In this document: positions 9,282-61,914 of the stretch, piece by piece | Numbering within the stretch: the stretch's first letter is position 1 | How the letters are laid out: every line of letters starts with the position of its first letter | DNA from: Halopenitus persicus | GTDB lineage: Archaea; Halobacteriota; Halobacteria; Halobacteriales; Haloferacaceae | Reading direction: 5' to 3' | DNA: 64,000 nucleotides | NCBI RefSeq assembly: GCF_002355635.1 | Contig: NZ_AP017558.1 | Location: 2,852,001 to 2,916,000 of the forward strand | The notes under the pieces: model-generated | What the model was told of the DNA's origin: nothing | What the model saw: only the letters and a program-made list of their open reading frames with translations | The model's database searches: none | Translations under genes and position numbers: made by a program

Positions 9282-10684
9282 CATCCGTCTTTAGTTAAGC
9301 CTCACACCTCGGTTGTGTAGCGGTAGCGAGTGTCTCTTGTAAGATCGGTCGCTGCTTGTGGATTTTTTGAGCGTCTTCGATCAGCCGTTCGAGCAGCGGC
9401 GGTGGTGAGTAGCCGAGGTACTCACCGAGTTCGTGGAGGATGAGCTGGGCGTGCGACCGAAAGGTCGCCGCCCAGCGCTCTGTCGGAAAGACGAGCTCAT
9501 CATCTGCCTGCTCAGTGACGAGATCCAACAGATCACGGCTTACCAGCAGCGAGAGCAACGCTGCGTACAGCAAGATCTCCACCACGTGTTCGTCACTCGT
9601 GTCGAACTCATCCAGTTCGTACTGCGTCTTCAGCTCGCGGAACAGCAACTCAACTTCCCACCGACAGCGGTAGATCTCTGCTAAATCTGCCGGAAAGAAC
9701 TCTTTTCTCGCCAAATTCGTCATATACAGATGGTAGTCGTCGGCGTCCTCGTCGCGGACGCCGACGACGCGAAATTGCTTCGTATCCAGCGATCGTGTCC
9801 CGTTGTACGGCCCTCGTTTGAACTCTACTTCGACCTCTACATCGATGTACTTCCGGTCGAGGTCGTCGAGAACAGCGCGGAGCTGCTTGCCCTCTAAGGG
9901 AATGGCGCGGCCGCGCCATTCCCGTAATTCTTCCGTAATCACCGGATTCGCGTTCTGCTTCAGCCGACTCACGAAGTAGCCGTCGTTCTCGTCGATCAGC
10001 GCAAACCGGCGGTACTTGAAATAGGCGAGATCGAACAACACGAGGCGGTTCTCAAGCCACGGCCCTGTTTTGAACAGGGTGCTGTCGTGCGTTTTTTCGT
10101 TAGCAGTGTCGAGCCGTTCAATCGTCTGCACCGTGGCATTGTGGAGCAGGTGGAGCTTCGCTCCAGCCTGCTCCTCGTGGCGGGCTTCGAACTGATCTGA
10201 GAGAAATTCGTGTAACCGCAACACCGTTCCATCAGCGATCATCACATCTCTAAATCGGTCGATATCAGCGTCAACAGCGTTAGGAACAGCGACCTCGTCG
10301 AGACCGCGCTCGACGAGGTCGCGGAGGTACTCCGCAAGCGTCGGAGTCAACCGCTGATAGAACCCGCCCGGAGAAATCGTTTCATCGGCAGTAGCGTTGT
10401 AACAGCGTCTAAACCCGGCGAGTGTTCGGCTTTCGCCTGCGGCGAAGCCGAACACGAATGCCCAGACAAAGGCAGGAATCTGGAGTTTGCGGTCACGTTC
10501 GACCACGCCGAGTTCCTCGGCGTGCTCTTCAAGGAACTCAGAGGGAAACAGTGTAGTGAGCCGACGCATAATTTGAGACGAGGAGGCTTCGTTGTGCACA
10601 CTCGATTCCTCCTCATTCCTTCCGAAAAGTAGTCCCGATAAGCCGCCGCTGCCACGCGGTTTCTCGCTTAACTAAAGACGGATG
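9282..10684 (-). mobile_element. IS4-family insertion sequence, ISH8 group, complete
   Basis: A 1403 bp element bounded by perfect 19 bp inverted repeats: CATCCGTCTTTAGTTAAGC at 9282-9300 and its reverse complement at 10666-10684. A perfect 10 bp direct duplication flanks it. Length, repeat and target duplication size fit ISH8-group IS4 elements of haloarchaea. The single transposase gene is intact, so the copy looks recent and potentially active. Confidence 0.95.
9295..10599 (-). CDS. IS4-family DDE transposase (ISH8 group)
   Basis: 434 aa transposase. The first Asp is in MIADGTVLRLHEF, the second in LVLFDLAYFKYRRF, and the Glu in YRCRWEVELLFRELK, which is the Y-(2)-R-(3)-E-(6)-K signature of the IS4 superfamily. 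It fills the insertion almost entirely and its stop lies inside the left terminal repeat. Full length with no frameshift, so probably functional. Confidence 0.95.
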   Translation of the reverse strand: MHNEASSSQIMRRLTTLFPSEFLEEHAEELGVVERDRKLQIPAFVWAFVFGFAAGESRTLAGFRRCYNATADETISPGGFYQRLTPTLAEYLRDLVERGLDEVAVPNAVDADIDRFRDVMIADGTVLRLHEFLSDQFEARHEEQAGAKLHLLHNATVQTIERLDTANEKTHDSTLFKTGPWLENRLVLFDLAYFKYRRFALIDENDGYFVSRLKQNANPVITEELREWRGRAIPLEGKQLRAVLDDLDRKYIDVEVEVEFKRGPYNGTRSLDTKQFRVVGVRDEDADDYHLYMTNLARKEFFPADLAEIYRCRWEVELLFRELKTQYELDEFDTSDEHVVEILLYAALLSLLVSRDLLDLVTEQADDELVFPTERWAATFRSHAQLILHELGEYLGYSPPPLLERLIEDAQKIHKQRPILQETLATATQPRCEA

Positions 10685-22374: not shown

Positions 22375-22911
22375 ATGATGGCAACGATCAACAACGTGGA
22401 ACTGGATTGGAAGGCGCAGGACGTCCTCGAAGCCCTCGTCGAGAATGGCGGGGAGGCGACGACGAGCGAGGTGAAGTCGTACACGGGGCTGGAGCGTAAC
22501 GAGGTCATCAAGTACCGCTTCGGGAAGCTCGCCGAGGCGGGGCTCGTGGAGACGCACCAGCCGGAGGCGCGGAACGGGCGACCGGCGGCGAAGGTGGCAC
22601 GGCTCACTGACGCCGCCGAGGAGTTGCTGGACGGTGATGGTGAGGTGGATCTCGAGGTTGAGGTGGGTGACGATGATCTCACCATCGACGAGCGGATGGA
22701 ACGGTTGGAGAAGCAGATGGCGCCGATCAGGGAGACTTACGGTGAGGTGAAGAAGCGGGTTGCGGAACTCGAGGAGGCCGTCGAGGAGCACGACGAGGAG
22801 TTGGACGGTATCGCGGAGGAGATCCGGAACGTGAAGCGGGCGATGGACGTGGACGGCCCCGACACGCGTGACGGGGACTTGGCGAGCGAGCTGGAGTTCG
22901 GCGACGACTGA
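22375..22911 (+). CDS. Winged-helix DNA-binding protein with coiled coil
   Basis: 178 aa. Residues 10-75 form a MarR/ArsR-like winged helix (QDVLEALVENGGEATTSEV, then NEVIKYRFGKLAEAGLVE), followed by an acidic linker and a coiled coil (MERLEKQMAPIRETYGEV and onwards to ~160) that would dimerise it. ATGs at 22375 and 22378 are both possible. Divergent from the J-domain gene across the repeat array; a regulator or partition partner is plausible. Confidence 0.75.
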   Translation: MMATINNVELDWKAQDVLEALVENGGEATTSEVKSYTGLERNEVIKYRFGKLAEAGLVETHQPEARNGRPAAKVARLTDAAEELLDGDGEVDLEVEVGDDDLTIDERMERLEKQMAPIRETYGEVKKRVAELEEAVEEHDEELDGIAEEIRNVKRAMDVDGPDTRDGDLASELEFGDD

Positions 22912-24264: not shown

Positions 24265-24308
24265 CTCTTAGTCGCATTTAAGACCCGGCGACATGAAAGG
24301 GGTTGATA

Positions 24309-27300
24309 ATGTCTGACGAGTTCGTTTCCGAACTCCATTCTGCCCTCTGCGAGATTCATAGCGAGGTTCGCGAGGAGGGAAGCGAGTTCGACTTCCGGTA
24401 CAGTCTGGTAGACCACCTGTTCACCGACGCGCTCGGCTGGTCACGCACCGAGGGCGAGGGCCACGTCAATTTCGAGGACGACCGCAAGGACGTCCTGTGT
24501 TTCGACGATGATGACCCGCCGTTCCCGGTTGTGGTCTGTGAGACGAAGCGACCGTCCCATGACCTCGAACTCCCCGACGTCGATCAGTTGGAGACATACA
24601 TGGTGGGCGTCGGGAGCGCGGAGTACGGCATCCTCACCAACGGCCACGAGTTCCGCCTGTACGAGTACGAGCCGGACGAGCGCACAATCCGCGCCATCGA
24701 CGGCTTCGCGCTTGACGAGGTGGTGGACGTGGAGCCGAGTGGGCTGTCGCCGGAGCAACGCGAGGTGTTGGAGGAGTTCGAGTACCTGCGACAGGATCGG
24801 TTCACGAACGTCGGTGACGCGGAGTACTTCCGACGGCGGGCGCGCGAGGTTCCCGTCCAGCACCAACCCGGTACGGACGACGAGGGGTACGAGCTGTTCC
24901 TCGACGCGGTGAAGAAGTCGCTGGACGAGCTGTCGAGCGTGATGAGCCGGTTCTTCGACGATTACAAGGAACGACCGGAGGACTCGTATCCCCGCGAGTT
25001 CTTGGAGACGACGTTCCCGGACTGGCAGGATTGGCGCGAGTACACGGGCAAGAGCGAGGACGCGAAGAAGACGTTCTGCCGGGAGACGGCGTACATCCTG
25101 ATGAACCGGGCGATGTTCGCTCGGATCGCCGAGGACAAGGAGATCGTCGGTCAGACGCGTTTGTCGGGACGTGGGATGGCAGAGGCCGTCGAACGCGGCG
25201 ATGACCGCCCGTACCTCGATGCGTTGATGGACACGTACGACCGGATCGACGATCACTACGCTGACCTGTACGAACTGGGTATCTTCGACTGGTGGTGGGT
25301 GAGCCGGGACAAGCGCCAACGGTTCGGTTCTGACGAGGAGAGTCGGCAGGAAGACCTCGAGGATGACTTGGACTACCGACTCGGGGAGGTCTTCAAACGT
25401 CTCAACCGGTTCGACTTCGAGTACGTCAACCGCGACATCCTCGGCCACGTCTACGAGGACTACCTTCCACAGGACGAACGGAAGGAGCTCGGTGAGTACT
25501 ACACCCCCATCGAAGTCATCCGGTATATGCTGGACGAAGCCGGGTACCGGACGGGTGAGGGCATCGGTCAGGAGAAGATCCTTGACCCGGCGTGTGGGAG
25601 TGGTGGCTTCCTAACTGAGGCGTGTGAGCGGCTGATTCAACACTTTATCAACAAGTTCGGTGAGACGAGTGTTCACTACCTCGACGCGGAGCAGGCTCGG
25701 ACGATACTGGAGCGCGTCGAACAGAACATCTACGGCATCGACATCAACCCGTTCGCCGTCCACATCACGCAGATCAACCTGCTGTTCCGCACCATCGACT
25801 TGTACGACAAGGTGACGGAGCAAGACCCGTCGTACACGATGGACGGGTTCCAGATTCACGTCGCGGACACGTTGACTCCGACCCTCCTCGAGAAGCAGGA
25901 GGGGAGTACGGATAGTGAGAGTCAGCAGTCCCAGATTCAGCAGTTCGCCAACTACAACGGGCGCGCGCAGTCGTTCCTCGACGACCGGAACGAGGTTGAC
26001 CGAATCAAGGACGAGGTGGAGTTTGACGTCGTGGTGGCGAATCCGCCGTACGTGCGCACGCAGAACATCAACGGGCCGAAGGAGGAGTACGCGGAGCGGT
26101 ACGCGTCCGTCGACAGCAAGTCGTTCGACATCTACGTGCCGTTCATCGAGCGAGGCATCGAGTGGTTGGCGGACGACGGGCGGTTGTCGTACATTTGCCC
26201 GAACCGGCTGCTTACTCACGAGTACGCACGCGACATCCGCGACACGCTCGCCGACGAGCCTCTGACGCACCTCATCGACTTCACCGACGTAGAGGTTTTC
26301 GACGCCGCGACGCCGTACCCTTGTATCGTGTCCGTCGACCGTGACGAGTCACCCGATCAGGACGTCCGTTGCGCTCGGTTTGCACATGAAAGAGAGGGGG
26401 TGTTGGACGAGATTTTCCAGAGCGACGAGTGGGAGACGCCGGACGGCATCGACGAGTACGATTTGTTCACGTACCCGAAGGGGCAGATGTGGGAGGATAA
26501 CGAGGACGACTACTTGGCGAGCTGGAAGCCGATGCCGGACGCGGAACGTCGCGTGTTCGACGCCATCGAGGAGACCTCGTCGCGGCGTCTCCGGCAGGTG
26601 TCGGATGAGGTGTTCGTCGGTATCCAGACGAGCGCGAACCCGGTGTACCTTGGCTTCATTGAGGACGGGGGTGTTGAGGGTGGTGACGACGTCGTCCAGT
26701 TCCGTGCGAAGGGTGACGACGAGGCACAGCCCATCGAACGCGACATCCTTCGTCGACTGCTCCGTGGCCCGGAGATCGACCGTTGGGGTGTTGACTGGGA
26801 GGGTCTCTGGCTGGTGTTCCCGTACGAGGTGGAGAATGGTGATGCGGAGTTGATGTCGGAGGAGAAGCTCCGTGACGAGTACGAACACACATGGACGTTC
26901 CTCGAGGATCACAAGGACTACCTGCAGGATAGAGACGTGCAGGACGACCGATGGTGGGCGTTCGGCCGGCGGCAGAACGTCGACAAGATGGAGCCGGACA
27001 AGATCATGACGAACATTATGAGCAGCTACAGCCGGTTCGTCGCCGATCTGGACGGAGAGTACTACTTCCTCGGTGGTGGGAATGCTGGTGGGTACGGCGT
27101 CCAACTGATGGACGAGTACGCACCTTCGGACGAGGAACACCTGTACTATGTCGCGCTTCTGAACTCGTCGGTGTTGGAGTTCTACCACAAGCACATCGCG
27201 CCCATCTTCGGTGGGAAATACTACTCGTACAACAAGCGGTACTTGGAACCGCACCCAGTCGTACTCCCGGATGACGTGCCTTCGGACGAGGTTGTTGACC

Positions 27301-27815
27301 TCGCCGACCGGATTCAGACGGCGCGAGCGGAGATCACCGACTTGGAGTACAAGACCTCGGACATCCGTAACTACCTCTCGGAGTACGACCGCTCGTCCAC
27401 CGTACTTGACCTTGCTCAGTCCATCGAACTCGACGACGATGACTATCGTCAGGGGCCGATCAGGAGAGATGCACAGATGGATGTCGAGACGGCAGAGGAG
27501 GTCTACAAAGTGGTGATGAAGCGGGGGCACGAGATCGGTTTCGATGACGAACGCGTGCGCGACTTCGTGTTCGGGATGTTGACCGCACAGGATAGGAGGT
27601 TGACGCGCTCGGAGGTGATGAACATGGACGTGCCGCCGCGTGAGGACGTTATAGAGCTGATGGAGCATCTGGCGGACGATGAAGCCCGCATCAAGTCACT
27701 GTCCGAGGAGTTCGAGGAGCGGCAGGACGAACTGGACGAGTTGATTCTCCGGGGTGTGTACGACTTTGGCGACCGGCAAGAGTCGGTTGTTGAGGAGTTC
27801 TTGGAGGTCTGGTAG
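24309..27815 (+). CDS. Type IIG-like restriction-modification enzyme (Eco57I-type N6-adenine methylase fused to nuclease)
   Basis: 1168 aa. The N-terminus carries a PD-(D/E)XK-like site (KDVLCFD, then VVVCETKRP with E78 and K80) as in Type IIG and HsdR-N nucleases. Methylase motif I is DPACGSGGFL at about 426 and motif IV NPPY at 578-581, marking N6-adenine methylation. The C-terminal ~450 residues are a TaqI/Eco57I-like target recognition region and helical tail. One chain thus cuts and methylates; no separate S, R or BREX/DISARM genes are adjacent. Start ATG 24309. Likely protects the element or excludes rivals. Confidence 0.85.
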   Translation: MSDEFVSELHSALCEIHSEVREEGSEFDFRYSLVDHLFTDALGWSRTEGEGHVNFEDDRKDVLCFDDDDPPFPVVVCETKRPSHDLELPDVDQLETYMVGVGSAEYGILTNGHEFRLYEYEPDERTIRAIDGFALDEVVDVEPSGLSPEQREVLEEFEYLRQDRFTNVGDAEYFRRRAREVPVQHQPGTDDEGYELFLDAVKKSLDELSSVMSRFFDDYKERPEDSYPREFLETTFPDWQDWREYTGKSEDAKKTFCRETAYILMNRAMFARIAEDKEIVGQTRLSGRGMAEAVERGDDRPYLDALMDTYDRIDDHYADLYELGIFDWWWVSRDKRQRFGSDEESRQEDLEDDLDYRLGEVFKRLNRFDFEYVNRDILGHVYEDYLPQDERKELGEYYTPIEVIRYMLDEAGYRTGEGIGQEKILDPACGSGGFLTEACERLIQHFINKFGETSVHYLDAEQARTILERVEQNIYGIDINPFAVHITQINLLFRTIDLYDKVTEQDPSYTMDGFQIHVADTLTPTLLEKQEGSTDSESQQSQIQQFANYNGRAQSFLDDRNEVDRIKDEVEFDVVVANPPYVRTQNINGPKEEYAERYASVDSKSFDIYVPFIERGIEWLADDGRLSYICPNRLLTHEYARDIRDTLADEPLTHLIDFTDVEVFDAATPYPCIVSVDRDESPDQDVRCARFAHEREGVLDEIFQSDEWETPDGIDEYDLFTYPKGQMWEDNEDDYLASWKPMPDAERRVFDAIEETSSRRLRQVSDEVFVGIQTSANPVYLGFIEDGGVEGGDDVVQFRAKGDDEAQPIERDILRRLLRGPEIDRWGVDWEGLWLVFPYEVENGDAELMSEEKLRDEYEHTWTFLEDHKDYLQDRDVQDDRWWAFGRRQNVDKMEPDKIMTNIMSSYSRFVADLDGEYYFLGGGNAGGYGVQLMDEYAPSDEEHLYYVALLNSSVLEFYHKHIAPIFGGKYYSYNKRYLEPHPVVLPDDVPSDEVVDLADRIQTARAEITDLEYKTSDIRNYLSEYDRSSTVLDLAQSIELDDDDYRQGPIRRDAQMDVETAEEVYKVVMKRGHEIGFDDERVRDFVFGMLTAQDRRLTRSEVMNMDVPPREDVIELMEHLADDEARIKSLSEEFEERQDELDELILRGVYDFGDRQESVVEEFLEVW

Positions 27816-27857: not shown

Positions 27858-27870
27858 GGCTGCCCCTTTT
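27858..27870 (+). promoter_or_regulatory. Promoter element GGCTGCCCCTTTT, copy 1
   Basis: GGCTGCCCCTTTT ends 26 bases before the GTG start at 27896, the position of an archaeal BRE/TATA for a nearly leaderless mRNA. The same 13-mer is at 28764 and a one-base variant at 30989. Confidence 0.6.
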
Positions 27871-27895: not shown

Positions 27896-28141
27896 GTGGT
27901 AGCGGAACAGATCGACTACTACGCGTACGTGCTCGTGACTGACCTGAGAGACCTCGACGCCGTCGAGACCGACGGGTGGCGGCTGGAGCGTTGGCGCGCC
28001 GAGGGCGTGGTGATGGCCTACGAGATGGATGATGATGGGGAGTGGCGTGCCCGGCACTACTACCGACCGGACGAGCTGCGGGAGCAGGCGGAGGACGCGC
28101 CCCGACGCGCCGCTAAGGTGGGTGATGATGGTGCGGTGTGA
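27896..28141 (+). CDS. Small hypothetical protein
   Basis: 81 aa from GTG 27896 (VAEQIDYYAYVLVTDLRDLD); beta-alpha pattern ending in a charged helix. The start is chosen from its distance to the promoter element; an ATG two bases earlier is out of frame and stops at once. First gene of a three-gene operon; overlaps the next gene by 17 bp. Confidence 0.65.
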   Translation: MVAEQIDYYAYVLVTDLRDLDAVETDGWRLERWRAEGVVMAYEMDDDGEWRARHYYRPDELREQAEDAPRRAAKVGDDGAV

Positions 28142-28304
28142 GATGCTCCGCGCGCTGGGCGCGTGCGGTGACATGGGGCCGTCTGCGGTCAAGGAGGCGA
28201 TGACTGGCGTCGCGTCGGAGGCGGCCCTGCTCGCCGCAGGGGCTGGGGTTCTCGCCGCCGCTGTCGTGGTCTCGCGCACCAACGCGGGTGATGGCCGTGA
28301 GTGA
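28125..28304 (+). CDS. Single-TM small protein with RTNAGD junction tail
   Basis: 59 aa from ATG 28125, preceded by AAGGTGGGTG as ribosome-binding site. One C-terminal membrane segment (AALLAAGAGVLAAAVVV) followed by SRTNAGDGRE, a variant of the repeated junction peptide. Longer frames starting upstream are out of phase with the preceding gene and unlikely. Confidence 0.6.
   Translation: MMVRCEMLRALGACGDMGPSAVKEAMTGVASEAALLAAGAGVLAAAVVVSRTNAGDGRE
28273..28291 (+). repeat. Junction repeat copy 1
   Basis: CGCGCACCAACGCGGGTGA at the junction 28125/28291; encodes RTNAGD in the upstream gene and carries the downstream ATG at 28291. One base differs from the common form. Confidence 0.85.
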
Positions 28305-28761
28305 GGCCAAGACCATCGGAACCGTCCTCCTCGGGGTTGTCGTTCTTGCGTTCGCTGGTGGATACATTACAGGAGTCGAACGGGCAACACCAAGCGTCGT
28401 TGATGTCAATTTGGCGGATAGAGAGACACCGACCGGTGAGGTGGAGTACGATTGCTCTGACGGGGTGTGCGATGTGACGGTAACTGTCGAGGAATGGAGA
28501 AACTACGAAACACTAGCCGTAGAGGATCTGAACACGGCAGAGACGTACTACTTGCATCCCGGAAACGAGTCGGTGACTATCGAGGATGTGGCGAAGCACA
28601 AATACGATGAAGTGGCCGTCTACGTGCCGGTGAGGGAGCTTACGGCGAGCGATGTCGTCTGGTACGAGTACTTCGACGATGCAGATGGGGATCGGCAGTC
28701 GTTCGGTGGCGAGGTGGAGAGGGACTACACCGTGGGTGTTGATTCGTCCGACGTTCGGTGA
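28291..28761 (+). CDS. Membrane-anchored hypothetical protein (GYxxGVE family, copy 1)
   Basis: 156 aa from ATG 28291. An N-terminal TM segment ending AFAGGYITGVERA is followed by an extracytoplasmic-looking beta-rich domain with a Cys pair (YDCSDGVCDV). The segment is almost the same as in the protein at 29213, so the two are paralogues. Last gene of its operon; it does not carry the RTSAG tail. Confidence 0.7.
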   Translation: MAVSEAKTIGTVLLGVVVLAFAGGYITGVERATPSVVDVNLADRETPTGEVEYDCSDGVCDVTVTVEEWRNYETLAVEDLNTAETYYLHPGNESVTIEDVAKHKYDEVAVYVPVRELTASDVVWYEYFDDADGDRQSFGGEVERDYTVGVDSSDVR

Positions 28762-28763
28762 CC

Positions 28764-28776
28764 GGCTGCCCCTTTT
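28764..28776 (+). promoter_or_regulatory. Promoter element GGCTGCCCCTTTT, copy 2
   Basis: Identical 13-mer to copy 1, ending 25 bases before the GTG at 28801. Confidence 0.6.
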
Positions 28777-28800
28777 GTCGGTTAGCGACGTAGTATCATA

Positions 28801-29220
28801 GTGGTGACAGACGTACCGTACACCACGAAATGGACTACTGAAGCGTCCACCGACGACGTACTCTATGTGACGTTCGCCAGCGGTTGGCGACTGGAGATGC
28901 ACGACTGCGGAGACGGCGTGCAGGTGATGGTCAGCGTGCCGCTGGACGAGCTGGATGAGTGGGAACAGCCGGAACAGATGCGGGGGTTCTACCCGGAGAG
29001 CTTCGACGTGGTTGTCGCGGAGTTGAAGGAGCGTCTCGGCGAGATTGACGGTCTCGACGAACTCGGCGAGGGTAGGATTCGGACGCGAACCTTCCACGAG
29101 ATCTCCAAGACCGTCGCCGAGCACGCGACCGGTGACGAGCCGCGATGCGTTGACCGCGCACCCGAGCAGCAGTCCCTCGAAGCGTTCTCGCGCACTAGCG
29201 CGGGTGAGAACAATGGTTGA
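28801..29220 (+). CDS. Hypothetical acidic protein with RTSAGE tail
   Basis: 139 aa from GTG 28801. Beta-rich N-terminal half, helical middle, three dispersed Cys residues, ending FSRTSAGENNG. Overlaps the next gene by 8 bp through the junction repeat. First gene of a four-gene operon. Confidence 0.7.
   Translation: MVTDVPYTTKWTTEASTDDVLYVTFASGWRLEMHDCGDGVQVMVSVPLDELDEWEQPEQMRGFYPESFDVVVAELKERLGEIDGLDELGEGRIRTRTFHEISKTVAEHATGDEPRCVDRAPEQQSLEAFSRTSAGENNG
29189..29207 (+). repeat. Junction repeat copy 2
   Basis: CGCGCACTAGCGCGGGTGA; the single change (C to T) is silent in RTSAGE and lies in the predicted hairpin loop. Confidence 0.9.
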
Positions 29221-29731
29221 TGTTGATCGTGTCATCGCCCCGATTCTCGTTGGACTCGTCGCGCTGGCGTTTGCAGGCGGCGGATACCTCGCGGGCGTCG
29301 AACACGCGCAGATGCAGGACGACGACTCGCCGAGGAACATCACCGTCCACGTGCCGGGACACACTCACGAGCAAGAGCCCCGGACGCCCACCGTCCGCGT
29401 CAACGTGACTGACGTGGAGTGTGGGGAGATCGACTGGAAGGACGGGCGATGGTGTGACGCCCGTACCACCGTCCACACGTCCGCCGAGGAGGCCATCGTC
29501 GCCAACAACCGAGGGGCGGCGGTATCCCTCGAAGCCGGGTACGTGACCGCGCTCGGAGCCGACGAGGGAGAGAAGTTGACCGTGTACGTGGTGGAGAACG
29601 GCGACGTAACGCCGGTCAAGCAGATCCACCTATCCGGCGGTGAAGCCACGGTTACGGCGGCGGAGGCTGGAGACGGCCCGCTCGCCGAGGAGAACGATTC
29701 GCGCACCAGCGCGGGTGAGACGGATGGTTGA
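29213..29731 (+). CDS. Membrane-anchored hypothetical protein (GYxxGVE family, copy 2) with RTSAGE tail
   Basis: 172 aa from ATG 29213. TM segment APILVGLVALAFAGGGYLAGVEHA, nearly the same as in the protein at 28291, then an exported-looking domain with one Cys pair (ECGEIDWKDGRWCDA). Ends DSRTSAGETDG. Translated in overlap with both neighbours. Confidence 0.7.
   Translation: MVDVDRVIAPILVGLVALAFAGGGYLAGVEHAQMQDDDSPRNITVHVPGHTHEQEPRTPTVRVNVTDVECGEIDWKDGRWCDARTTVHTSAEEAIVANNRGAAVSLEAGYVTALGADEGEKLTVYVVENGDVTPVKQIHLSGGEATVTAAEAGDGPLAEENDSRTSAGETDG
29700..29718 (+). repeat. Junction repeat copy 3
   Basis: CGCGCACCAGCGCGGGTGA, the consensus form, at the junction 29213/29724. Confidence 0.9.
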
Positions 29732-30299
29732 GCCGTTCGGCGAGGACTGTATGGAGTGCGAACGTCACGTGCAGGACTGGCGCGGACTCGCCTACGAAGT
29801 CGAGGGGAACCGATGGGAGTACCTCTGCCCCGAGTGCGCGGAGAAGCGTGACTACCTCGACGAGCGCGCGATCGACGACGTGGAGTGCCCGGAGTGTGGG
29901 CAGAAGCGGGACGTAGAGCGTGTCGGTCTGCACGACGTCGACGACCGACGGCGGAAGGTGCTGGCCTGCAACGAGTGCGGACACGTCTACACGCGTCCCG
30001 CGAGTCGGGCGCACACCGGCGCAGAGAAGGACTTGTACCAGTACCTCACCACCGATGCTCGCACTCCGATTCTCGATGAATGGGTGATGGTTCCCTCCTC
30101 GTCGTTGCGAGACGATGAACTCGTGGTGTACGTGTTCCACGCCGCCGACGTGGTGATGGACGAGTTCGACGGGCGGCTCCACGTCGAGTACGAGGCGGAA
30201 GAGATCGGTGACCGGGTATGGGCGTTCCGCGTCGAAGTCGACGATGTCCGGGAGGCGTTCGACGAACAAGTCACCGAGGAGGTGGGTGATGTTGAGTGA
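29724..30299 (+). CDS. Double zinc-ribbon protein
   Basis: 191 aa from ATG 29724. Two zinc ribbons: CMEC...CPEC (residues ~9-43) and CPECGQ...CNECG (~55-93), followed by a mixed alpha/beta domain without TM segments. Lacks the RTSAG tail; its junction to the next gene is instead GGAGGTGGGTGATG. Confidence 0.7.
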   Translation: MVEPFGEDCMECERHVQDWRGLAYEVEGNRWEYLCPECAEKRDYLDERAIDDVECPECGQKRDVERVGLHDVDDRRRKVLACNECGHVYTRPASRAHTGAEKDLYQYLTTDARTPILDEWVMVPSSSLRDDELVVYVFHAADVVMDEFDGRLHVEYEAEEIGDRVWAFRVEVDDVREAFDEQVTEEVGDVE

Positions 30300-30433
30300 G
30301 CCTCGGCGACTATCGACCGGTCAGGTGCGTGGAGTGCAGACGGTGGACTGTTCGTGGGCGGGCGAGGATGACGCACGGGTACGCGACGGCGGGGCCGTAC
30401 TGGTGGTGCAGCGATTGTGACCCGGATTTGTAG
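30296..30433 (+). CDS. 45-aa zinc-finger protein
   Basis: A very short gene: GTG 30296 overlaps the upstream TGA (GTGA), stop TAG 30431-30433. The product contains CVEC at residues 11-14 and CSDC at 38-41 with basic residues between. The alternative frame from ATG 30289 has no such motif and is less convincing. Small size makes it easy to miss. Confidence 0.6.
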   Translation: MSLGDYRPVRCVECRRWTVRGRARMTHGYATAGPYWWCSDCDPDL

Positions 30434-30437
30434 GCGG

Positions 30438-30632
30438 TTAGTCGGTGAGTCTGATTCTGCCGTCGTCGCGTTCGACGAGTTCATCTCGACATAATGTGTT
30501 GAGTACAGCGAGGATGGTGAGCAGAGGTTCGTCAAGTTCGTCGGCGAGCTGGCGTGGGGTGCAGGGGCCGTGTTCCGTGAGGTAGAGGAGGACGAGTTTC
30601 GCCCCGGGCGAGTCAACGCTGTCGAGTTGCAC
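30438..30632 (-). CDS. Small winged-helix DNA-binding protein
   Basis: 64 aa from GTG 30632. AKLVLLYLTEHGPCTPRQLADEL followed by LLTILAVLNTLCRDELVE is a compact winged helix. It lies opposite to the flanking operons and ends 5 bases from the convergent 45-aa gene; likely a local regulator. Confidence 0.65.
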   Translation of the reverse strand: MQLDSVDSPGAKLVLLYLTEHGPCTPRQLADELDEPLLTILAVLNTLCRDELVERDDGRIRLTD

Positions 30633-30715
30633 GCGACCGTGGATCCGCCTCGTGGCGGGTTAGGTGTTCTTCGCGTGTGCCGGCATTTACGGTGGCCGCG
30701 CGTGATGGCAGAGGT

Positions 30716-30868
30716 ATGGGGCTGGACGATAGGACTCCAGTGGACGAGTGCCCGCGGTGTGGTGAGGAGGCGTACGATCACGTTGAGCCGGGCGGCGAGT
30801 ATTCGGGCTCGCCGATTGGCCACATTCGTGTTTGCGTGACGGAGGAGGGTGCGTTCTTCCACGGGTAG
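30716..30868 (+). CDS. Tiny zinc-ribbon protein
   Basis: 50 aa from ATG 30716: CPRCGEEAYDHV near the N-terminus and a lone downstream Cys (RVCVTEEG), probably half of a zinc site plus His. A possible TATA (CATTTAC) stands about 30 bases upstream. Confidence 0.5.
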   Translation: MGLDDRTPVDECPRCGEEAYDHVEPGGEYSGSPIGHIRVCVTEEGAFFHG

Positions 30869-30988
30869 GGTGTCCGCGATCCCGGCGACCGAGGACAGAG
30901 TCGACCCGGCGCGGCGTGCAGGGAGGGGGTGGTTTCCAGCAAGCGCGGCGCGAGGTGTCCCCGTACCGCGGAGCGCGGACGCGCACCC

Positions 30989-31001
30989 GGCTGCCCCTTA
31001 T
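30989..31001 (+). promoter_or_regulatory. Promoter element GGCTGCCCCTTAT, copy 3
   Basis: One-base variant of the elements at 27858 and 28764; here the gene start is 33 bases downstream and preceded by a GGAGGA ribosome-binding site. Confidence 0.55.
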
Positions 31002-31033
31002 TCCGACGAGAGGCGTAGTTCTACTTGGAGGAA

Positions 31034-31531
31034 ATGACCGATGATGACCGTTCGATCCGTCGATTCCTACTCGCCACCTACGCGATTCCGCACGAGTTGA
31101 CGCACTACGTAGTCGCTCGACTTCTCGGGATGAATCCGACGTACCACTTCTGGGAGATGGAGGTTGAATGCGAGGGTGACCTGACGGAGCATCCGCGGAG
31201 GTGGCAGGCGATGAACTTGGCACCGTTCCTTCTTCTGCCGCTCGTGTACCCGATTCAGTCGGCCCTCTTGATGATCGGTGTTCCGGCTGGATTCCCCGCG
31301 CAGATCGTGGCTCTGGCGGTCACGTTCTCGTTGGCTCTTCCGAGCGGTGACGATTCGGGGGCGGCTCGGGATTTGAGCGTGATTGCGTCGGCTGACCACT
31401 CGGAGACGTGTGAGTGCGAGCGGTGTGGTGGCGAAGCCGAGTCGTTCGTGCAGCGGACGGAGGTGGTGTACTGCGACGAGTGTACCCTGACGTACGATCC
31501 GGACGTGATCGGCGACGATCCGGATTGGTGA
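31034..31531 (+). CDS. Membrane HExxH metalloprotease-like protein with zinc ribbon
   Basis: 165 aa from ATG 31034 (GGAGGA upstream). H20-E21-x-x-H24 (PHELTHYVVARLLG) lies next to membrane segments around 62-102, the arrangement of M50/DUF3267-type intramembrane zincins. A C-terminal zinc ribbon follows (C128xxC131, C147xxC150), an unusual fusion. Could act on signal or membrane proteins of the element. No exact substrate can be inferred. Confidence 0.6.
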   Translation: MTDDDRSIRRFLLATYAIPHELTHYVVARLLGMNPTYHFWEMEVECEGDLTEHPRRWQAMNLAPFLLLPLVYPIQSALLMIGVPAGFPAQIVALAVTFSLALPSGDDSGAARDLSVIASADHSETCECERCGGEAESFVQRTEVVYCDECTLTYDPDVIGDDPDW

Positions 31532-31821
31532 GGTTGTTCCAGTAGTCGGTACTTCTCGACAACATCTGTCGAGGTGGTTCTAGTTCTGACCCGAGCGCAG
31601 GGGGTTGCACTGCTCGTCGAGTTGGTAGCGGAACCGGAACAGCTTCGGCGACCGGGCCGGCGCGATCTGCGGTGATGGGTGTAGCACACGAGCTGGTGCA
31701 TCGAACGTGACACTCGTTGTCGAGAAGAACCCTTCAGGGGTGGTCAGATACCGGGGCTTCTGGCCACATCAGCAGCCCAGAACTGGGCTTATAAAGATTA
31801 GACACGTAATTACACACGTTG
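31532..31821. other. Non-coding stretch with promoter
   Basis: 290 bases without a supported gene. A clear TATA (GCTTATAAAG, about 31789-31798) precedes the AbrB-like gene. The rest shows no repeat or RNA structure that I can identify. Confidence 0.5.
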
Positions 31822-32202
31822 ATGGAAGACCGCGAAAACGAGTTCGAGACCGACATTTGGCCGCTCGGCGGCTCCCGCGGAACCACCATCCCCCCGCGAA
31901 TCCTGATGTGGACTCAAGCCCCCGACGCCGAGGACGCCGAAGTGCGCTGGCTCTACGATGACGACCGCCGCATCTACGTCGAGTTCGGACGCGCGTCCGA
32001 TGAGCGCGTGGACGACATCTACAGCCGCACCACTTCGATCCAGCGACGTTCGGAGGGGAGCCGCGCGACCGCGATTCCCGTCGACGTCCTCCGTGGCGAG
32101 AATGCCGACGACGCCGACAAGGTGGTGTGGCGGTTCGATCTGAGCGAGAAGCATCCCGTCCGTCCCAAGTTCGTCTCCGAGGAGGAGGGTGATGGTTCGT
32201 GA
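31822..32202 (+). CDS. AbrB/SpoVT-like DNA-binding protein
   Basis: 126 aa from ATG 31822. Two copies of a swapped-hairpin pattern: GSRGTTIPPRIL near residue 17 and GSRATAIPVDVL near residue 78, each followed by beta strands. Such proteins are repressors, often autoregulatory. Overlaps the serine recombinase by 4 bp, suggesting it controls that gene. Confidence 0.65.
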   Translation: MEDRENEFETDIWPLGGSRGTTIPPRILMWTQAPDAEDAEVRWLYDDDRRIYVEFGRASDERVDDIYSRTTSIQRRSEGSRATAIPVDVLRGENADDADKVVWRFDLSEKHPVRPKFVSEEEGDGS

Positions 32203-32942
32203 AGCGAGCAGAGGGCTACACCCGACTGTCGCAGTCGGGTGCCGAGGACAACATCCCGACGCAGGGCCGTCTCATTACCGACTACTGTCGGGAACACGAC
32301 GAGCTGGAACTTCAGGCTATCCACAACGACGGAGAACACGAGAGTGGATACGATCCCGACAGGGACGCCTATCAGTCGCTGATTGACCGGATTCGGGCTG
32401 GCAACGTGGATGCGGTTGTCGTCAAGTCCCTCTCCCGTCTTGGGCGCGACTTCGACGAGCGAATGGACTTGATGATCACGATGCGTCGGCGTGGCGTCGA
32501 GCTGCACAGCCACCAACGCGACCGGATCGACATCTCCGATCCGTGGGCCGCCGCGAAGGAGGCGATGCTGGCCGCCGCCGACGACGCGAAGAAGCAGGCG
32601 GAGATCGAAGACGCCATCGAGGAGATTGAGCGTCGGATTGACCGTGGCGAGTATCAGGGCCGTCCGTGGACGGGTACGGAGTTCGACGAGGAGAGTCGGT
32701 ACCTCGTGCCCGCGAACGACGACGAGTGGGAGGCCGTGATGGCTGTCGTCGAGGAGTGGGAGAAGACGGGTGGTGAGGCGTCGAAGCGCGGACTCGCCCG
32801 GGAGACGGGACTGTCCCGCGGCACGGTTCGGCGAGTCATCGACCGCATCGACGAGTACTGCGCGCTGGCCGACGGGGCGAGAATCGGTTGGGAGGGCCGC
32901 GTCATCTGGCCGGACGAGGCTCCCGCGACCGCCGACGACTGA
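32199..32942 (+). CDS. Small serine recombinase (resolvase/invertase family)
   Basis: 247 aa from GTG 32199 (GTGA overlap). The catalytic domain has YTRLSQSG with S11, a DAVVVKSLSRLGRD block with conserved Arg residues, and a long helix. The C-terminal half ends in an HTH (GLARETGLSRGTVRRVIDRI). It could resolve multimers, invert a segment, or act at repeats within the element. No obvious crossover site was identified. Confidence 0.85.
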   Translation: MKRAEGYTRLSQSGAEDNIPTQGRLITDYCREHDELELQAIHNDGEHESGYDPDRDAYQSLIDRIRAGNVDAVVVKSLSRLGRDFDERMDLMITMRRRGVELHSHQRDRIDISDPWAAAKEAMLAAADDAKKQAEIEDAIEEIERRIDRGEYQGRPWTGTEFDEESRYLVPANDDEWEAVMAVVEEWEKTGGEASKRGLARETGLSRGTVRRVIDRIDEYCALADGARIGWEGRVIWPDEAPATADD

Positions 32943-32955
32943 TTCGGCGAAGAAC

Positions 32956-33327
32956 TCAGATTCCTTTCCCGGCGAGGTGCTGGGCCATCCACGCCAAGTC
33001 TTCTATCCGTCCCAGATCTGCCTCGTCGAACTCGCCGTAGAGGGTTGAGCGGCTGTTCCTGATCTTCTCGCGGGCAGAGTCGAGTTCCTCGACGAGCCCC
33101 GCTTCATCGACGGGGAGTGCGTGTCGTCGGATGCGAAGTGCGACCGCCTTCGATTCGTCCTCGTTGAGTGTCGTCCTCGAGTGGATCAACTCGGCCAGCT
33201 CGTCAGGGAAATGTGGGAGCATCTCGAGCATCTCCTCGCGCGAATCGGCTTCCGTCGCGACTTGGGCGAATCTGTTGTGCTTTGTCACTACATCTATACC
33301 TACGTCATCTGGTATGAAAAGGGACAT
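32956..33327 (-). CDS. Helical hypothetical protein
   Basis: 123 aa, predominantly alpha-helical and acidic, no Cys motif. Divergent from the RHH-like gene at 33420; the AT-rich 92 bases between hold both promoters. Confidence 0.65.
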   Translation of the reverse strand: MSLFIPDDVGIDVVTKHNRFAQVATEADSREEMLEMLPHFPDELAELIHSRTTLNEDESKAVALRIRRHALPVDEAGLVEELDSAREKIRNSRSTLYGEFDEADLGRIEDLAWMAQHLAGKGI

Positions 33328-33419
33328 CCCACTCTCTCGCCGACCGCCTTCTTCTCGTCAGCATCTGCCGAACCCGCGCTGGGGAGTCGTTTAAACTGTC
33401 AGAACACATACATACATAT

Positions 33420-33620
33420 GTGGAAGAACAGGATCGACACCTGACCCACACGACGATCACGATCGGTACGGAGCAGAAGGAGTGGCTCAACGAAGAGGAC
33501 GTCAACCTATCCGCCCTCGTCCGCGACGTCATCGACGAGGCCCGCCGCCGCGACGACGCGGGGGTGGACATCGACGCCAGCGAGTTCGACTTCGGCGACC
33601 GCGCCGGTGGTTCTGAATGA
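33420..33620 (+). CDS. Small RHH/CopG-like protein
   Basis: 66 aa from GTG 33420. TTITIGTEQKEWLNEEDVN then LSALVRDVIDEARRR has the strand-helix-helix pattern of CopG-type repressors. An ATG two bases earlier is out of frame and stops after eight codons. First gene of a six-gene overlapping operon. Confidence 0.6.
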   Translation: MEEQDRHLTHTTITIGTEQKEWLNEEDVNLSALVRDVIDEARRRDDAGVDIDASEFDFGDRAGGSE

Positions 33621-33928
33621 CGGATCGTGCGGTTGCCGTGATGATCGAGCGGGGTAGCGATCGGCCAGTGTATGACGTGTTGGTGATTGGTGAAAAGGCT
33701 CAGTCGAACCGACAGATCGACAGGTGGCACGACGTGTACGTCGTCCCGGAAAATGAGGTGATGTCGCTCCTCGACGACGAACTTGACGTGGATGTTGACG
33801 GTTGGTGGGACTCGCACGAGTGCGGGGAGTGCGGTCGGTATCTCCCTACAGAGGACGAGCTAGAGGAGCACCTGATCGAGTCTCACAAAATCTACTATCC
33901 GCGCACCAGCGCGGGGGATTCGGCGTGA
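33617..33928 (+). CDS. C2H2-like zinc-finger protein with RTSAGD tail
   Basis: 103 aa; ATG 33617 overlaps the upstream stop (ATGA). A finger CGECGRYLPTEDELEEHLIESH sits near the C-terminus, followed by YYPRTSAGDSA. Function unknown. Confidence 0.65.
   Translation: MTDRAVAVMIERGSDRPVYDVLVIGEKAQSNRQIDRWHDVYVVPENEVMSLLDDELDVDVDGWWDSHECGECGRYLPTEDELEEHLIESHKIYYPRTSAGDSA
33900..33918 (+). repeat. Junction repeat copy 4
   Basis: CGCGCACCAGCGCGGGGGA between 33617 and 33925; GGGGGA replaces GGGTGA and the next gene starts with GTG. Confidence 0.9.
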
Positions 33929-34209
33929 CGCCGTTGGAAGTCGTCGGCGTAGCCGCGATCGCGGTCACCGTGATCATCATCTACACCGTCGGCAGCAACT
34001 ACTACCTGTACTCTGGGCCGGAGTCGCGCGTGCTGTACTGGCTCTCCCAGCCCGGAGTCATATTGCTCTTCGGTGCGGGGATCGTCCTCGCCGTGGTCAC
34101 TGGCCGGGCATCCGTCGGCGAGGCACGCGACTTCGCCGGGGAACTCGTGGACGAATTCACCGCCGACAAGGAGGACTCGCGCACCAGCGCGGGGGATTCC
34201 GATGAGTAG
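33925..34209 (+). CDS. Two-TM small protein with RTSAGD tail
   Basis: 94 aa from GTG 33925 (4 bp overlap). Two membrane segments (VVGVAAIAVTVIIIYTV and GVILLFGAGIVLAVV), a short acidic tail, then DSRTSAGDSDE. Confidence 0.65.
   Translation: MTPLEVVGVAAIAVTVIIIYTVGSNYYLYSGPESRVLYWLSQPGVILLFGAGIVLAVVTGRASVGEARDFAGELVDEFTADKEDSRTSAGDSDE
34178..34196 (+). repeat. Junction repeat copy 5
   Basis: CGCGCACCAGCGCGGGGGA at the junction 33925/34202. Confidence 0.9.
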
Positions 34210-34810
34210 AGAGCAGGCGTGCGAGGAGGCCGTCCGCGATGGCGTCTTCAATTCCGTGGAGGCGTGCCGCGAGGTGGCCGGACAGGCGACCGTAGAGGCT
34301 CTCGGCGGATCGTTCGTGGAAATCCTCACCACACCGGCAACTCCCGTGGTTTTGACTCTACTGTTCCTACCGTTCTTCGGCCTCGTGAAGGTCTACATCG
34401 ACGAGCTGGAGAAAGTTGAGAACGAGGAACAGTCGTCGTCTACTGATTCCGTCCGCCGCGAGTACGTGAGCGGAGAGATCGGCGACGTCGAGTTGGAGCA
34501 GCGTCTGGAGGACGTCGTCGACGTGCCGATGGACGAGGGCCTCGGCGCGACCGTGCAGGACGAGTTGGATGCGCTCGATGACGGTGACGAGGGGGCCGCC
34601 GAGTGCGACTGGTGCGGCCGGACGCTTCGACGCGACGAGCTGGTTGACCACCCGATGATCTCGGGGCTGGTCTGTGACGAGTGCCCGTCGTTCTCCGGCG
34701 AAGAAGAACGCGTGGCGGTCTTCGGCGACCGGATGTACGTCGAGGGTGAGGGCGGGGGTGTCGAGACCTACGAGTTCGACTCGCGCACCAGCGCGGGGGA
34801 TGACTCGTGA
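34202..34810 (+). CDS. TM protein with SHOCT-like motif and zinc ribbon, RTSAGD tail
   Basis: 202 aa from ATG 34202. A TM segment near residues 45-65, a SHOCT-like helix (REYVSGEIGDVELEQRLE), then a zinc ribbon (CDWCGRTL...CDEC) and the tail DSRTSAGDDS. The modular build suggests an adaptor at the membrane. Confidence 0.65.
   Translation: MSREQACEEAVRDGVFNSVEACREVAGQATVEALGGSFVEILTTPATPVVLTLLFLPFFGLVKVYIDELEKVENEEQSSSTDSVRREYVSGEIGDVELEQRLEDVVDVPMDEGLGATVQDELDALDDGDEGAAECDWCGRTLRRDELVDHPMISGLVCDECPSFSGEEERVAVFGDRMYVEGEGGGVETYEFDSRTSAGDDS
34782..34800 (+). repeat. Junction repeat copy 6
   Basis: CGCGCACCAGCGCGGGGGA at the junction 34202/34807. Confidence 0.9.
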
Positions 34811-35100
34811 TCCGACGTATGCTCCGCCGCCTCGACGTTGCTATCGCTGACCGGGTGTTGCCGTGGCGAGGTTCGGATGTCGATCTGTACCCGGTTGGCG
34901 CCCGCGTCGTCAGCAGTAGTGGAGAGGAGTACGAGATCAGGTCACGAGCGTACGACTTCGACGAGGGCAAGGTCTGGTACCTGATGGAAGGCGGGGACGG
35001 AGACTATGAGCGGGCCATCCACGCCTCCGTCGAGACCAAGACCGTGATCATTCCCGGAGAAACCGACTCGCGCACCAGCGCGGGTGATGGCCGTGAGTGA
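34807..35100 (+). CDS. Small hypothetical protein with basic N-terminal helix, RTSAGD tail
   Basis: 97 aa from GTG 34807 (GTGA overlap). Begins with an amphipathic basic helix (IRRMLRRLDVAIADRVLPW) and continues as a beta-rich domain; ends DSRTSAGDGRE. Confidence 0.6.
   Translation: MIRRMLRRLDVAIADRVLPWRGSDVDLYPVGARVVSSSGEEYEIRSRAYDFDEGKVWYLMEGGDGDYERAIHASVETKTVIIPGETDSRTSAGDGRE
35069..35087 (+). repeat. Junction repeat copy 7
   Basis: CGCGCACCAGCGCGGGTGA, followed by TGGCCGTGAGTGA exactly as after copy 1 (28292), so the identical stretch spans the next start codon. Confidence 0.9.
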
Positions 35101-35659
35101 CGAGATGATTGCGGCAGGCGTCGCCGCCGGTGAGGTCTGCAGTCGGTGCGAGGACTGGAACGAACCCGTCCACGAGTACGAGACGTACCAAGACGGCGTT
35201 CGGCTACAACTCTGCGATGACTGCGCCTTCGAGGCGTTCACGGAGGGCTCCATCAAAGCGGGCTTCGCCGATCAATCGGAGTCGAGTCCCAGCCTCTCGC
35301 CTGACGGGCGGAAGCGGCTCACGTGGGAGGACGGGGAGGAGTGGGTAGTCGTGCATCACCACGACGAGTACGAGTACCGCGATGGGGTGCAGTATCACAG
35401 CGTCACCGTCCGTTATTGCGGCACGATGTTGGAGCTGACTGCTGATGGGGCCGCGACGCCGCGCCCGAGTGGGATGAGTGGGACGGGGGCGTTCCCCGTG
35501 CCCCGTAACCGCATCGCGGACACCGTTGACTACATCGTACCCTCGCATGCGGAGTTGGTGGTCATCTATCGCTGCGAGGCCGAGATCCCGGAACTGGATG
35601 AGCTTGCAACCGAGGTAAACCGCGACTCGCGTACCAGCGCGGGTGATGACCGTGAGTGA
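35087..35659 (+). CDS. Zinc-binding hypothetical protein with RTSAGD tail
   Basis: 190 aa from ATG 35087 (GTG 35093 also possible). An N-terminal CSRCEDW...CDDC pair suggests a zinc ribbon; the following domain is beta-rich. Ends RDSRTSAGDDRE. Confidence 0.65.
   Translation: MAVSDEMIAAGVAAGEVCSRCEDWNEPVHEYETYQDGVRLQLCDDCAFEAFTEGSIKAGFADQSESSPSLSPDGRKRLTWEDGEEWVVVHHHDEYEYRDGVQYHSVTVRYCGTMLELTADGAATPRPSGMSGTGAFPVPRNRIADTVDYIVPSHAELVVIYRCEAEIPELDELATEVNRDSRTSAGDDRE
35628..35646 (+). repeat. Junction repeat copy 8
   Basis: CGCGTACCAGCGCGGGTGA; the change is silent (Arg) and gives a G-U closing pair in the predicted hairpin. Confidence 0.9.
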
Positions 35660-35996
35660 GCAGACGCAACTGACCGAGTTCGCCGAAGAGGCGCGCGAGC
35701 AGGATGCTGCCTCGGTGGAGGAGATTCGCGAACGGTACGCCGAGGGCGAGATCGGCGACCGCGAACTCGAGGAGCAACTGGAGCGGGCAGTCGGGGAACC
35801 TGATGTTGACGGCGGAGAGGACGATGAAGGCGACGTTCCGGTGGTGATGTTCGCTCTGGCGTTCGTTATGCTGTTGATGGTGGGTGTTGTGGTGACCTTC
35901 GGAGTTCCTCTCGCACTGGCGACGTTCACCAGCCTGTCATTCCCTGTGAGTTGGGGGTTGTGGATAGGGGCTGTGGTTGCCTTCCTTCTGGATTGA
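35646..35996 (+). CDS. SHOCT-like two-TM protein
   Basis: 116 aa from ATG 35646. A SHOCT-like helix (RERYAEGEIGDRELEEQLE) close to that of the protein at 34202, an acidic linker, then two TM segments. Last gene of the operon and without the RTSAG tail. Confidence 0.65.
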   Translation: MTVSEQTQLTEFAEEAREQDAASVEEIRERYAEGEIGDRELEEQLERAVGEPDVDGGEDDEGDVPVVMFALAFVMLLMVGVVVTFGVPLALATFTSLSFPVSWGLWIGAVVAFLLD

Positions 35997-36019
35997 TTGC
36001 CGGTAGATGGCGTAGGGGG

Positions 36020-61542: not shown

Positions 61543-61914
61543 ATGAGCAAGACCCAATCGACGTTTGCCGACTTCGAAGCAGACGACGCCGCCGACGAGT
61601 CCGACTCGTCACACTCTGTCGACACCGACGCCGCCACGCCCACCAACCAGCCCGACGACACCGAGGACGACGAGGTAGAGATTCTACCCGAACTCCTTGC
61701 CGACGACTCCGGCACCCAGTGCAAGTCGTGCGGCCAGCCCGTATCCGACGAGTACGCCAGAGTCGCCGGCGACAACAGTGGAGAAGTCCACAGCTGTCCT
61801 CGGTGTAACACCGTCCACGAGAACCTCAAAGGAGCCACCGCCGGCGTCGAACGCGACGACGGCGAAACCCTCTTTGAAGCGATCTACCGCGACAACGCGG
61901 GTGATGCGCGATGA
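61543..61914 (+). CDS. Zinc-ribbon protein with N-terminal PIP-like motif
   Basis: 123 aa from ATG 61543. QSTFADF at residues 5-11 resembles a PCNA-interacting peptide; a zinc ribbon (CKSCGQPV...CPRCN) lies in the C-terminal half. Ends YRDNAGDAR, overlapping the nuclease-like gene, with a relative of the junction repeat (61888-61904). Confidence 0.6.
   Translation: MSKTQSTFADFEADDAADESDSSHSVDTDAATPTNQPDDTEDDEVEILPELLADDSGTQCKSCGQPVSDEYARVAGDNSGEVHSCPRCNTVHENLKGATAGVERDDGETLFEAIYRDNAGDAR
61888..61904 (+). repeat. Junction repeat-like sequence (distant copy)
   Basis: CGCG-ACAA-CGCGGGTGA keeps the inverted repeat and GGGTGA but encodes RDNAGD instead of RTSAGD. It lies at the gene junction 61543/61911. 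Confidence 0.6.

Follow-up and report, generated by a model that had tools for sequence, protein, structure and literature searches.

A repeated coding sequence at overlapping gene ends in a Halopenitus persicus island: a candidate module for translational coupling

How do unrelated small genes come to lie stop-to-start in one operon, with the same sequence at their joints? The question is raised by a stretch of the genome of the haloarchaeon Halopenitus persicus (contig NZ_AP017558.1, positions 2,852,001 to 2,916,000), the whole 64,000 nucleotides of which are called the window here and supply all coordinates. Three operons in it carry a 19-base repeat, the tag, eight times at overlaps between consecutive genes; each copy encodes the C-terminus of the upstream protein and carries a Shine-Dalgarno (SD) sequence for the next gene. 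We think it probable, at roughly 0.6, that the repeat is a portable translational-coupling gene-junction module that has been spread by recombination, analogous to the start-associated and boundary sequences of phages. The problem touches on how orphan small genes ("dark matter islands") join archaeal operons and get expressed.

Eight copies of one junction

The operons, in which genes ending in the repeat are called tagged and TM stands for transmembrane, are these:

27905..28761, plus strand, operon I: T0 (27905-28141, untagged), T1 (28143-28304, 53-amino-acid TM protein, tagged), P1 (28297-28761, untagged, last)
28804..30433, plus strand, operon II: T2 (28804-29220, tagged), T3 (29213-29731, TM, tagged), Z1 (29724-30299, zinc ribbons, untagged), L1 (30296-30433, untagged)
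33420..35996, plus strand, operon III, first part: A (33420-33620, untagged), T4 (33617-33928, C2H2-like finger, tagged), T5 (33925-34209, TM, tagged)
33420..35996, plus strand, operon III, rest: T6 (34202-34810, TM, SHOCT-like and zinc), T7 (34807-35100) and T8 (35093-35659), all tagged; L8 (35652-35996, SHOCT-like and TM, untagged)

The tagged junctions are these:

28272..28304, plus strand, T1/P1: SRTNAG codons 28272-28289, SD GGGTGAT, P1 start GTG 28297 (or ATG 28291), T1 stop 28302-28304
29188..29220, plus strand, T2/T3: SRTSAGENNG-stop, SD GGGTGA, T3 start ATG 29213
29699..29731, plus strand, T3/Z1: SRTSAGETDG-stop, SD GGGTGA, Z1 start ATG 29724
33899..33928, plus strand, T4/T5: PRTSAGDSA-stop, SD-like GGGGGAT, T5 start GTG 33925
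34177..34209, plus strand, T5/T6: SRTSAGDSDE-stop, T6 start ATG 34202; nearest to the haloarchaeal dppB-dppC junction
34781..34810, plus strand, T6/T7: SRTSAGDDS-stop, T7 start GTG 34807; tag and T7 also present in genome G120 behind another gene
35068..35100, plus strand, T7/T8: SRTSAGDGRE-stop, SD GGGTGAT, T8 start GTG 35093 (or ATG 35087)
35627..35659, plus strand, T8/L8: SRTSAGDDRE-stop, SD GGGTGAT, L8 start GTG 35652 (or ATG 35646)

A sequence-only reading of this DNA had listed the eight copies, and all of them were located. Eight matches to CGCGCACCAGCGCGGG with at most one mismatch were found in the window, compared with a mean of 0.02 in dinucleotide-preserving shuffles, and all eight lie on the plus strand between 28.3 and 35.6 kb (a span of 7.4 kb), at positions named before the search. 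The copies make up the largest repeat family in a generic repeat scan of the window, and five of its seven exact direct repeats of at least 19 nt are pairs of tag junctions. Every copy falls within the last 8-11 codons of an open reading frame (ORF), in one common frame throughout. The encoded end, (S/P)RT(S/N)AG(D/E) in all eight as had been claimed, is followed by 2-3 residues, and the start of the next gene lies inside or just before the stop codon. Elsewhere in the genome the pattern is at background: with up to two mismatches it matches 28 times (both strands, the eight included) versus 31 times for the reversed pattern. A looser member of the family was seen at 61889 (61880-61914; RDNAGDAR-stop, GACAACGCGGGTGATG); this look-alike lies away from the tagged operons, again where a stop and a start overlap, and probably arose by chance on top of an SD.

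Two further claims stood only in part. All eight copies do lie at gene-gene overlaps, but only 8 of the 11 internal junctions of the operons are tagged, the others being T0/T1 (28141/28143), Z1/L1 (30299/30296) and A/T4 (33620/33617). The tagged proteins are largely unrelated, as stated, but stretches are shared by three pairs of operon proteins: P1 is a paralogue of T3 with a common N-terminal TM region (28297-28761 and 29213-29731), T6 and L8 have a SHOCT-like stretch in common (34202-34810 and 35652-35996), and T4 and T6 a zinc-ribbon stretch (33617-33928 and 34202-34810). These partial paralogues combine domains in shuffled order, as if small domains had recombined. No relative of T8 was found among 148 genomes of the family, nor any of T3, T6 or T7 in viral contigs, and a tested set of tagged proteins gave no match in plasmid and phage collections. 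The one viral-contig match to Z1, a 39-amino-acid zinc-ribbon hit on a contig of 37% GC that lacks the tag, was rejected.

The module has three parts: (i) the SRTSAG codons, of which the upstream gene's own sequence bears no trace (the flanks agree at 2-11 of 21 positions); (ii) GGGTGA(T) or GGGGGAT, present ahead of the next start as predicted and complementary to the 16S tail GGATCACCTCCT, which this genome carries, with pairing energies of -8.4 to -13.6 kcal/mol at every junction; and (iii) the upstream stop and downstream start, overlapping by 4 or 8 nt (P1, T8 and L8 taken with their GTG starts), the start lying about 7-11 nt from the GGG. The conserved CGCGCACCAGCGC does not pair with 16S, so the repeat exceeds 16S complementarity. 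The bases downstream define subclasses: T1, T7 and T8 read GGGTGATG[GA]CCGTGAGTGA (GTGATG(G/A)CCGTGAGTGA), T2 and T3 read GGGTGAGA..ATGGTTGA, and T4-T6 have GGGGGAT. T1/P1 and T7/T8 agree at 33 of 34 nt, in a stretch that runs over the stop and start into the next gene. DNA similarity thus extends beyond the end of the protein, so what has been copied is the junction. Overlaps without a tag end in GD as well in this window (EVGDVE-stop, EEGDGS-stop, CGGDAP-stop, TEGDLV-stop, NAGDAR-stop), in the form -GD-x(1-3)-stop; the terminal GD is nothing special, since that frame contains the SD motif GGTGAT. We take the 3' half to be an ordinary reinitiation signal, which leaves as the excess to be explained CTCGCGCACCAGCGC, only SRTSA/CGCGCACCAGCGCG being special.

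The repeat can fold into a hairpin of 7 bp extending over the first G's of the SD. The inverted repeat, read earlier as CGCG(C/T)-ACYA-GCGCG in seven of the eight copies, was confirmed as CGCGC-ACCA-GCGCG, T1 being without the innermost pair. The hairpin forms in all nine copies when the one in G120 is counted, with core energies of -7.7 to -12.6 kcal/mol.

A relative in another genus, and the surrounding island

Pattern searches covered 391 genomes of the haloarchaeal class and 170 of the family. The sole true relative of the tag was found in G120, which belongs to another genus of the same family; the other genomes of the class were at background level, indicating that haloarchaea do not use the sequence generally at their junctions. 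A DNA search with operon III in the 391 genomes gave many short low-complexity matches, among which only G120 was convincing. There, a 164-amino-acid winged-helix/coiled-coil protein ends in ...EEIRNIKRVLVDETDSRISAGEDS-stop (...VDETDSRISAGEDS-stop) and is followed by a decayed copy of T7, IIREIVQRIDGAIADRVLPW..., in which the GTG start has changed to ATA and a stop follows after 29 codons. The window has its own relative of this upstream gene:

22375..22911, plus strand, winged-helix/coiled-coil gene with the untagged end ...LASELEFGDD-stop (AMDVDGPDTRDGDLASELEFGDD-stop), relative of the G120 winged-helix gene

The two are homologous up to EEIRNVKR, after which the window gene diverges to its untagged end; a relative in genome G227 likewise ends untagged (EFTFGDD-stop). 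The G120 gene aligns with window positions 22687-22838; no more than about 20 nt farther on, the alignment passes to the tag and T7 (window 34770-34874). T7 is therefore preceded by T6 in the window and by the winged-helix gene in G120, in this one case the same junction with another upstream partner. Gene 22375 and T6/T7 share a strand, with 22375 on the upstream side, so the G120 order can be derived by a deletion or exchange with its right end where the tag begins at its 5' side. The junction, found in G120 with T7 but with another gene before it, thus moves as one piece and is able to exchange the gene in front; this chimera is the only direct evidence for a recombination seam.

No tag besides the known G120 copy was found in the related regions of genomes G082, G227, G120 and G161. 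The match in G161, RTNAGEP-stop, was dismissed, as it sits in a 13-codon open stretch. An exact 20-mer scan of 84,980 genome species returned 39 stretches, all bacterial and taken as chance from their record titles. Exact scans of viral contigs returned 2 and 22 stretches, all judged to be chance (the first two by sequence, the rest by frame and distance to the stop). In one viral-contig locus (L198) an ORF ends in SRTSAGEGLHND-stop, but the contig is not haloarchaeal and no overlapping gene follows. A literature search for the peptide RTSAGD gave nothing relevant.

The operons lie in a fast-changing island, and a relative of its recombinase region, at 88% DNA identity, was found in G082, a genome of another family. 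Two features of this region matter for what follows:

32199..32942, plus strand, serine recombinase (Resolvase N-terminal domain and helix-turn-helix), 88% amino acid identity to the G082 copy; a backbone gene flanking the variable block
32951..36018, no strand, 3.07-kb block with operon III: a clean indel, missing from the G082 element (L099 5015/5016), directly downstream of the serine recombinase gene

The block is a variable spot of the element, and at its ends, 32951 and 36018, no tag, terminal repeats or target duplication was seen. A second rearrangement in G082 (L099 2190-2343) is a deletion by which the T2 promoter and initial codons became fused to the 3' portion of Z1, and in G227 a restriction-modification gene has a Z1 remnant upstream. 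As for element ends flanked by a tRNA or attachment sites, the window has no direct repeat of at least 19 nt that could serve as such sites.

A leader, CGGCTGCCCCTT(A/T)T, recurs at 27860, 28766 and 30991, about 30-40 nt before the first start of operons I and II and of the gene at 31025, and a variant, GGCTGCCTCTTTTG, is kept in G082. The shared leader is probably a common promoter of leaderless transcripts, as would be expected in haloarchaea. Beside the tagged operons, 24303-27815 encodes a 1170-amino-acid adenine methyltransferase (Eco57I-like or like PglX of the bacteriophage exclusion system, BREX, below the NCBIfam BREX cut-offs; 77% DNA identity to G227), a candidate defence gene. Farther off, 19-nt inverted repeats at 9282-9300 and 10666-10684 enclose gene 9295-10599 (minus strand), probably an intact insertion sequence. 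A self-overlapping 47-nt direct repeat (27-nt unit) at 4378-4451, at the 3' end of gene 1808-4468, encodes a tail rich in Gly and Glu, immediately ahead of an overlapping gene. Perfect palindromes, 20-26 nt long, stand at 3420, 9898, 13507 and 22943.

What the junction may do

The favored reading, that of a coupling module spread by recombination, sets out from what is observed directly: the repeat, its frame and position, its complementarity to 16S, the sharp loss of similarity upstream and the natural case in G120. The 5' part of the module would provide the last codons of the upstream ORF (SRTSAG), and the 3' part the SD (GGGTGA or GGGGGA), followed after a few bases by the overlapping upstream stop and next start. 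A ribosome ending the upstream gene would meet this SD with its overlapping start and presumably reinitiate, and any ORF joined through the module would thereby be expressed as a coupled member of a leaderless haloarchaeal operon. The hairpin may hold the site shut until the upstream ribosome opens it. Homologous recombination within or between related elements might then spread the copies, keep them alike and swap the flanking genes.

That the repeat acts in translational coupling, as the sequence-only reading had suggested, is supported by the match of the SD to the genome's own 16S 3' end, and is in agreement with work showing that haloarchaea use SD sequences for reinitiation at overlaps, not for de novo starts (PMC6728339). 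Of 14 overlapping pairs tested in Haloferax volcanii and E. coli, 13 were strictly coupled, and loss of the SD in H. volcanii lowered reinitiation by 20-80% in most pairs but did not abolish it (PMC6728339). The suggestion of a recombination seam is supported too, by the G120 swap and the 34-nt sharing between T1/P1 and T7/T8, but the seam is seen once, since the breakpoint in G120 lies at the tag and those in G082 do not. For the RNA-processing element proposed alongside these, no evidence was found.

Several observations weigh against a coupling module spread by recombination. Three of the eleven junctions have an SD yet no module, which is thus dispensable for coupling; 19 bp is short for homologous recombination; and both visible rearrangements in G082, the 3.07-kb block and the T2-Z1 deletion, end away from tags. 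The hairpin showed no covariation in excess of shuffles (98.4% of cells paired, 0 two-sided changes), all its pairing-preserving changes being C to U or U to C opposite G. Finally, all nine copies use one frame though in five of them a second frame also stops in the TGA of the SD, which hints at selection on the peptide.

This last point belongs to a different explanation, in which SRTSAG(D/E) is a C-terminal recognition or targeting sequence of the island proteins, serving for example a common partner or turnover. The G120 protein keeps SRISAGE despite other changes and the decay of its downstream gene. Changes within SRTSAG (T4 TCG to CCG, T8 CGC to CGT, T2 ACC to ACT, T1 AGC to AAC, G120 ACC to ATC and AGC to AGT, and GGT/GGG) are synonymous in 4-5 of 7-8 cases, G120 counted, where 30-33% is expected, an excess that points the same way but falls short of significance (P 0.06-0.17). 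A peptide tag has, however, to account for its exact coincidence with an SD, for carriers as dissimilar as short TM proteins and zinc proteins, and for DNA identity that runs beyond the stop into the next gene. It must also explain why the sequence is confined to genes with an overlapping neighbor, and why the first genes T0 and A, the middle gene Z1 and all last genes are without it. The absence from operon-final genes that had been pointed out holds in 3 of 3 cases in the window, but with these numbers P is only 0.055; the gene after the tag in G120 is a remnant. DNA identity past the stop and the G120 swap favor the junction over the peptide, as first proposed, and a peptide tag appears unlikely.

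Alternatively, the copies might be relics of recent small duplications, one junction having been copied with its neighboring ends as the operons grew, with no function beyond the SD. The local classes defined by downstream bases (T1, T7 and T8; T2 and T3; T4-T6) are in keeping with this, as is the presence of an SD, but no tag, at ordinary overlaps in the window. On the other hand, the unrelated upstream genes would require repeated joining to new genes, a recognizable copy survives in another genus, and paralogous parts of the operon genes have fallen to 53-56% DNA identity while the tags still average 92%; we consider this origin improbable. That the imperfect palindrome is a crossover site of the neighboring serine recombinase (32199), with the genes as its cassettes, is very unlikely: the core is an inverted repeat and the tagged block directly follows the recombinase gene and is either there or missing as a whole, but neither end of the 3.07-kb block is tagged, no target duplication was seen, the central bases vary (ACCA, ACTA, ATCA), and all copies run in the same direction, in coding frame at stop/start overlaps.

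Comparison with known systems

The closest chromosomal counterpart is the haloarchaeal dipeptide-permease junction dppB-dppC (DPRISAGDSDGY-stop), which has three mismatches in the 15-nt core and the same SD and ATG spacing as T5/T6. Haloarchaeal dppB-type permease genes end in DPRI[STK]xG[ED]...AY or GY-stop, with the SD of the next gene inside (loci L152, L154-L156, L163, L170, L171, L173, L199-L201 and L204). Since other members of the permease family end in DPRISRGETDAY, DPRIKSGESSEAY and DPRITTGEKDAY, the constraint on DPRI comes from the permease and that on the SD part from reinitiation. No dppB-family member was found in the H. persicus genome itself at E 1e-40. Common descent of the tag and this junction has about one chance in three; the permease junction is a possible source of the tag, and convergence is possible as well. 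The permease junction is a single chromosomal gene pair in which DPRI is kept for the protein, whereas the tag stands at eight junctions of unrelated genes.

A wider idea, which we hold to be rather doubtful, is that a 19-34-bp connector (coding end, SD, stop and start), possibly derived from host dppB-dppC, assembles accessory-gene operons in archaeal mobile elements, so that any ORF recombined between two connectors would at once be coupled. If true, this would be a gene-cassette principle resting on reinitiation instead of site-specific recombination, and a seam and a reinitiation signal in one repeat would explain how unrelated ORFs enter functional operons in one step.

Among phages, the start-associated sequences (SAS) and extended SAS (ESAS) of cluster K mycobacteriophages and cluster EF Microbacterium phages come nearest. 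The SAS is 13 bp long, occurs in about 10-19 copies per genome, all in one orientation and in ribosome-binding position just before the starts of unrelated genes, and is not found in the host; further conserved sequence lies upstream of roughly half the copies in cluster K and of all ten in cluster EF (PMC3203893, PMC7302621). The tag is likewise short, conserved, multi-copy and of one orientation at the ribosome-binding site before unrelated genes. Compared by eye, it is unlike the 13-bp consensus GGGATAGGAGCCC or GGGAAAGGACCCC, so the likeness is one of kind, not of descent. Whereas the SAS lies directly before starts and the cluster EF ESAS in non-coding gaps, the tag codes in frame for the upstream C-terminus; and the SAS resides in phages, the tag in an integrated archaeal element with one other copy known elsewhere. 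Genes 67 and 68 of phage Island3 offer a second parallel, a shared C-terminal coding end that was read as a recombination seam (PMC3029335). As in the tag junctions, unrelated adjacent genes have a common coding 3' end in DNA; the phage case, however, is one pair sharing 60 bp, and here eight copies of 19-34 bp carry an SD and a start. With haloarchaeal reinitiation pairs the tag junctions have in common 4- and 8-nt stop/start overlaps, an SD inside the upstream gene and leaderless operons (PMC6728339), but ordinary pairs share the SD only, whereas the tag junctions also share the preceding 15 nt. What is new is the archaeal setting, the coding nature of the repeat and the combination of seam and reinitiation signal; start-associated repeats, which the papers cited here describe in actinobacteriophages, would thus extend to archaea, with coding as an added feature.

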